Source: Candidatus Bathyarchaeota archaeon
GTDB lineage: Archaea; Thermoproteota; CALKCG01; B24; DRYS01
NCBI GenBank assembly: GCA_018396535.1
Contig: JAGTQC010000004.1
Span: 1-64,000, forward strand
DNA length: 64,000 nucleotides
Reading direction: 5' to 3'
The notes beneath the pieces are model-generated. The model did no database searches. It had not been told where the DNA came from and saw only the letters and a list, made by a program, of their open reading frames with translations. The position numbers and the translations under genes are program-made. Below, piece after piece: positions 16,563 to 16,675 of this stretch; position 1 is the first letter of the stretch, and every line of letters starts with the position of its first letter.

Positions 16563-16588
16563 TAACGTTTAAGTTATGCATAACGTTT
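16563..16588. repeat. Two direct copies of TAACGTTT, 18 bases apart
   Basis: Copies at 16563-16570 and 16581-16588 follow the trxB stop. The second is 11 bases ahead of the structured RNA candidate. The same core AACGTTT occurs in the inverted repeat at 5836-5863. They could be regulator sites or part of the upstream element of the RNA gene. Confidence 0.35.
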
Positions 16589-16598
16589 GATATCCTAT

Positions 16599-16666
16599 GA
16601 GCGGCTCTGATGATTCAGAGTTATAGGGTACCCCCTATGCCCTTAAGGCATTAGGCTGAGCCGCTC
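16599..16666 (+). ncRNA. Structured RNA candidate, box C/D-like
   Basis: GAGCGGCT (16599-16606) pairs perfectly with AGCCGCTC (16659-16666). Inside, box C-like TGATGA lies at 16608-16613 and box D CTGA at 16656-16659, directly next to the closing stem, as in a kink-turn of an archaeal C/D guide RNA. Unlike most such RNAs the interior holds small hairpins: CTGA-TGAT-TCAG, ATAGGG-TACC-CCCTAT and TGCC-CTTAA-GGCA. ACCC and TTTTT follow, giving a likely terminator. It lies between trxB and the MocA-type gene with no overlapping reading frame. A leader element of the downstream gene is the alternative. Confidence 0.55.
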
Positions 16667-16670
16667 ACCC

Positions 16671-16675
16671 TTTTT
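16671..16675 (+). terminator. T-run after the structured RNA
   Basis: TTTTT directly follows the GC-rich closing stem and ACCC. Such runs end transcription in archaea. It supports an independent small RNA rather than a leader, though read-through is possible. Confidence 0.45.

Follow-up and report, generated by a model that had tools for sequence, protein, structure and literature searches.

A probable box C/D guide RNA gene of a Bathyarchaeota archaeon with two conserved 23S rRNA guides and degenerate internal boxes

The closest described systems are the archaeal double-guide box C/D sRNAs. The double guides often target nearby sites, and the methylated nucleotide is given by the N+5 rule (PMC7994747). 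A hotspot of archaeal guide targets is domain IV, helices 68-71 (PMC4644070). The internal C'/D' motif is reported to be one that archaeal guide RNAs cannot do without, but that does not function in more than 80% of the yeast ones (PMC8413462). In yeast 25S rRNA, two sites are methylated 25 nt apart, Am2256 (snR63) and Am2281 (snR13), both of which are listed at the inter-subunit bridge (PMC8307265).

The RNA described here lies in the window, i.e. the whole stretch of 64,000 nucleotides (64 kb) that was analysed. It resembles the archaeal double-guide sRNAs in its size, terminal stem, kink-turn and C and D boxes, and in having two guides with close targets on one rRNA (PMC7994747). Its stem-to-stem length of 70 nt lies within the range of about 50-70 nt used for archaeal C/D sRNAs, and its D guide fits the antisense element of 10-12 nt against rRNA or tRNA that these carry beside box D. 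However, in the window's genus the C'/D' boxes are degenerate and a hairpin possibly takes their place. Judging from spacing and sequence, yeast snR63 (25S Am2256) and snR13 (25S Am2280/2281) guide to equivalent positions (PMC8307265), but these are two separate snoRNAs while the window has one RNA, and we do not suggest that they are homologous. A single recognisable C/D motif is likewise found in yeast C/D snoRNAs that lack a functional C'/D' (PMC8413462); unlike them, the window RNA is archaeal and short, and its D' guide is intact.

No Rfam family covers the sRNA at either gathering or relaxed thresholds. The families snoZ223, snoZ266 and sn2343 match weakly over the boxes and the stem (17-19 bits, E 0.3-0.8), far under their gathering scores (43-60 bits). 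In the article texts searched, the two guide strings do not occur together. The kind, an archaeal double-guide C/D sRNA, is already known, and the family may already have been named.

We consider it very probable that 16598-16667 on the forward strand is a box C/D guide RNA gene, orthologous to a double-guide sRNA found across the phylum. Its main features are the following.

16568..16577, forward strand: possible TATA-like element TTTAAGTTAT, about 25-30 nt upstream, seen by eye
16598..16667, forward strand: box C/D sRNA gene, minimal extent from stem to stem, from sequence and orthologues; the window's sole candidate
16598..16605, forward strand: 5' arm of the terminal stem, TGAGCGGC, pairing with 16660-16667; covariation in 30 relatives
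16608..16613, forward strand: core of box C, TGATGA; invariant or nearly so among relatives
16615..16624, forward strand: D' guide TCAGAGTTAT; 10 bp (one G-U) to 23S GTAACTCTGA, its best 23S site; conserved
16645..16654, forward strand: D guide AAGGCATTAG; 9 of 10 pairs to 23S CAAATGCCTT, its best 23S site; conserved
16656..16659, forward strand: box D, CTGA; conserved
16660..16667, forward strand: 3' arm of the terminal stem, GCCGCTCA; covariation
16671..16675, forward strand: T5 run, possible archaeal terminator; not conserved among relatives

The sRNA (16598-16667, forward) reads TGAGCGGC-TC-TGATGA-TTCAGAGTTATA-GGGTACCCCCTATGCCCT-TAAGGCATTAGG-CTGA-GCCGCTCA. The terminal stem of TGAGCGGC and GCCGCTCA is exactly 8 bp long, and its 3' arm is separated from the T5 run by CCC. 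The kink-turn bulge, ahead of the G-A steps, has 3 nt on the 5' strand (TCT, 16606-16608) and 0 on the 3' strand, which is the canonical C/D geometry; TC at 16606-16607 contributes to it together with box C. The R of the (R)UGAUGA box C is a C in the window's genus. Both strands of the window were scanned for TGATGA and CTGA separated by 25-55 nt and closed by a stem of at least 4 bp, and 16598-16667 is the only match. In first-order Markov random sequence, 0.09 matches are expected per 64 kb with this stem, and 0.005 if the stem must have 7 bp or more. The original prediction, that stem, TGATGA, CTGA and T-run are hard to obtain together by chance, is borne out by this low expectation, and both the 8 bp and the T5 run are confirmed. 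The sRNA also folds more stably than its shuffles (z = -3.55). Just upstream of the sRNA and adjoining the possible TATA box there is a 12-nt palindrome, GTTATGCATAAC (16574-16585), which could be the site of a regulator or a product of chance.

A DNA search recovers the RNA at 92% identity over its length in the sister genome G001 of the same genus, and at 74% in two genomes of another family, G002 and G003. A first covariance model based on these sequences detects G004 (E 1e-16). Rebuilt from five sequences, the model has matches in 135 of 300 genomes of the phylum, covering 58 of 127 genera. Both complementarities to 23S are present in 30 of 30 aligned relatives, a conservation that is partly selected for, as the collecting covariance model includes the guides. 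The terminal stem is 96% paired in these relatives, and in five of its six pairs both partners vary. Its pairing exceeds that of 500 of 500 shuffles and is lost when the alignment is slid. Covariation in related genomes had been proposed as a check of the original prediction, and these compensatory changes provide it. Ignoring the stem, the exact two-guide pattern in this order occurs in 77 of the 300 genomes and the reversed pattern in 0; a few of the 77 matches, e.g. G066 and G027:C55, are without boxes and look like chance. The pattern with swapped order was meant as a control. It matches permuted sRNAs as well as rRNA genes, the latter because the two guides jointly are antisense to that rRNA stretch, and it is not a null.

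A single copy of the sRNA was found in the window's genome and in G001. The neighbours in the window's genus are a thioredoxin-reductase-like and a Gfo/Idh-like gene, whereas those in family f2 resemble SRP54 and a family-4 glycosidase, as we read the translations. A scan of the genome contigs with the neighbouring protein returned distant reductases only and no useful synteny. Four of the five closest orthologues have a TTTAA-like box some 30 nt upstream, those of G001, G002 and G003 being at a similar distance. As the gene context varies between families while the RNA and such upstream boxes persist, the sRNA is most likely an independent, trans-acting gene.

The targets were scored using guide positions 2 to 11 beside each D-type box against 23S rRNA. 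The window's own genome assembly (G000, 93%-complete) contains no 16S or 23S rRNA genes, presumably a binning or assembly gap, and its guides were therefore compared with the 23S of G001. The best 23S site of the D' guide, GTAACTCTGA, scores 9.5 out of 10 with a runner-up at 7.0, and that of the D guide, CAAATGCCTT, 9.0 out of 10 with a runner-up at 8.0. Comparing the 12 bases before CTGA with rRNA, as had been suggested, thus gave a positive result in the best match of the D guide. An A-A mismatch falls at position 3 of the D guide in the window's genus, and in G003 and G004 this guide matches 23S at 10 of 10 positions. The guides of the window and of G001, both scored on the rRNA of G001, have the same top pair of sites as those of G003 and G004. 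The joint guide score is reached by 0 of 1000 shuffled guide pairs, both for the window and for G001. No site in 16S is equally good or common across genomes. In several lineages (L123 and L125 of f18; G002-G004) the D' guide is TCAAAGTTAC, with a single mismatch (A-C, position 8) to the GTAACTCTGA site, the remainder being conserved.

The two target sites are 25 nt apart in the 23S of G001. By the N+5 rule, methylation is predicted to fall on the second A in GTAAC and the third in CCAAAU, also 25 nt apart. We take the target A of the D' guide to be the equivalent of E. coli A1913 (helix 69, inter-subunit bridge) and that of the D guide to be the equivalent of A1938 (between helices 69 and 71). 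Going by the numbering and by the spacing of 25 nt that they share, the yeast equivalents of the two predicted sites are presumably Am2256 and Am2281. Both sites would then sit at the subunit interface, in functionally central parts of the large ribosomal RNA.

Some relatives differ in the order of the guides. Nine loci (L146-L154, in G224, G236, G260, G212, G090, G200, G065, G016 and G099) from families f4, f13, f31, f43 and f54 resemble complete C/D sRNAs in which this guide pair has exchanged places. In the swapped form AAGGCATTT precedes D' and TCAGAGTTA precedes D; the boxes are good and the terminal stems short. The arrangement fits a circular rearrangement of the gene or an independent assembly. 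Circular gene rearrangement has been proposed for one Methanopyrus sRNA (PMC4644070).

In three relatives the 23S gene has an insertion between the two target sites, of 558 nt in G002 (L091), 563 nt in G003 (L090) and 47 nt in G004 (L092), and there is none in G001. The long insertions encode GFIDADGS, by eye a LAGLIDADG-like stretch, and thus look like archaeal rRNA introns. Given this position, the insertion would lie between the two bound guides in an unspliced precursor, and it can be speculated that the sRNA holds the 23S exons together.

The internal part of the sRNA contains three further features.

16623..16638, forward strand: hairpin ATAGGG-TACC-CCCTAT in the place of the C'/D' kink-loop, from sequence; weaker in the sister genome
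16626..16629, forward strand: position of the D' box, degenerate (GGGT), from alignment to relatives with CTGA, GTGA, ATGA etc.
16636..16642, forward strand: approximate position of the C' box, degenerate (TATGCCC), from alignment to TGTGAA or GATGAA of relatives

Most of the 30 relatives have the internal boxes; their D' ends in GA and their C' contains TGA, for example CTGA...GATGAA in L142 and GTGA...TGTGAA in G002-G004. Recognisable C'/D' boxes of a kink-loop are absent in both genomes of the window's genus. Degenerate boxes are also found in L123 and L125, and L136 has an odd D'. The original prediction was right that internal C'/D' boxes are unclear, with GGGT and approximately TATGCCC in their places, and this is the one unusual feature of the sRNA. 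Membership of the C/D class is kept despite the missing C'/D' because of the clear orthology to members that have the boxes. A variable C'/D' is compatible with this RNA class, and the function of the D' half is uncertain.

Three internal hairpins had also been described, and all can be drawn in the window (CTCTGA-TGAT-TCAGAG, ATAGGG-TACC-CCCTAT and GCC-CTTAA-GGC). However, the minimum-energy fold does not contain the full set, and they are not conserved in relatives: the first and third are interrupted outside the window's genus, and the second has lost its outer-loop G-C pairs even in G001, where it is shortened to ATAG-GGTAT-CTAT. The first overlaps box C and the first guide. What had been seen as a hairpin-rich interior is instead two antisense guides conserved across the phylum. 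The C/D reading stands, whereas the earlier alternatives of a divergent guide RNA or a new class are not supported and give way to a conserved double-guide sRNA.

We suggest a mechanism that follows what is known of the family. L7Ae would bind the kink-turn, and Nop5 and fibrillarin would then join; fibrillarin is encoded in the window's genome. Fibrillarin would 2'-O-methylate the nucleotide opposite the fifth guide base before each D-type box. The products would be Am at the A1913 equivalent through the D' guide and Am at the A1938 equivalent through the D guide, and from the sequence we infer 2'-O-methylation at both 23S sites. In the window's genus the inner C'/D' motif has decayed with the D' guide left intact, which would mean either that D' methylation can proceed with a degenerate motif or that it has given way to a role in annealing (chaperone). 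The boldest form of this proposal is an archaeal guide RNA that keeps both guides and has exchanged the C'/D' kink-loop for a plain hairpin, giving an asymmetric, eukaryote-like particle with one motif; we put it forward as a speculation that is rather unlikely to hold.

Alternatively, the RNA of the window's genus could be effectively a single-guide (D only) or chaperone form, in which methylation at the A1913 equivalent was lost with C'/D' and the D' segment merely anneals to helix 69. D' and C' are degenerate in both genomes of the genus, and archaeal guide RNAs reportedly need C'/D' (PMC8413462), so this account is possible, if doubtful. However, the D' guide retains 10 bp (one G-U), a match at least as good as in the boxed relatives G002-G004, which argues for its continued use. 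It is improbable that the gene is a decaying copy, a pseudogene in progress whose sites are covered by another sRNA. The loss of the C'/D' boxes and the mismatch at position 3 of the D guide would agree with decay, but two species of the genus, at 92% identity over the RNA, still have the long perfect stem, the two guides and boxes C and D, and a single copy per genome was found.

A terminator or cis-regulatory hairpin of the adjacent genes is very improbable. It would account for a strong stem followed by T5 in a short intergenic gap; however, the orthologues of family f2 lie between other genes, the T-run is not conserved, and boxes and guides are conserved rather than the stem alone. The terminator was rejected on this change of gene context between families. 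A new structured-RNA class defined by the three hairpins, for which the drawable hairpins and the low folding energy speak, is hardly credible and was rejected as already contradicted by the relatives, since these hairpins are not retained there, are not all in the predicted fold and overlap guides and boxes.

Read as a double-guide box C/D sRNA, an unannotated RNA gene gains a concrete predicted function with exact predicted methylation sites. The guide pair is kept in many genera, in contrast to the fast turnover reported for archaeal guides (PMC7994747). Lineages without C'/D' or with swapped guides are natural experiments on how far methylation depends on the C/D architecture. If true, the form with a hairpin in place of the kink-loop would be an archaeal precedent for the loss of C'/D' in most yeast snoRNAs.
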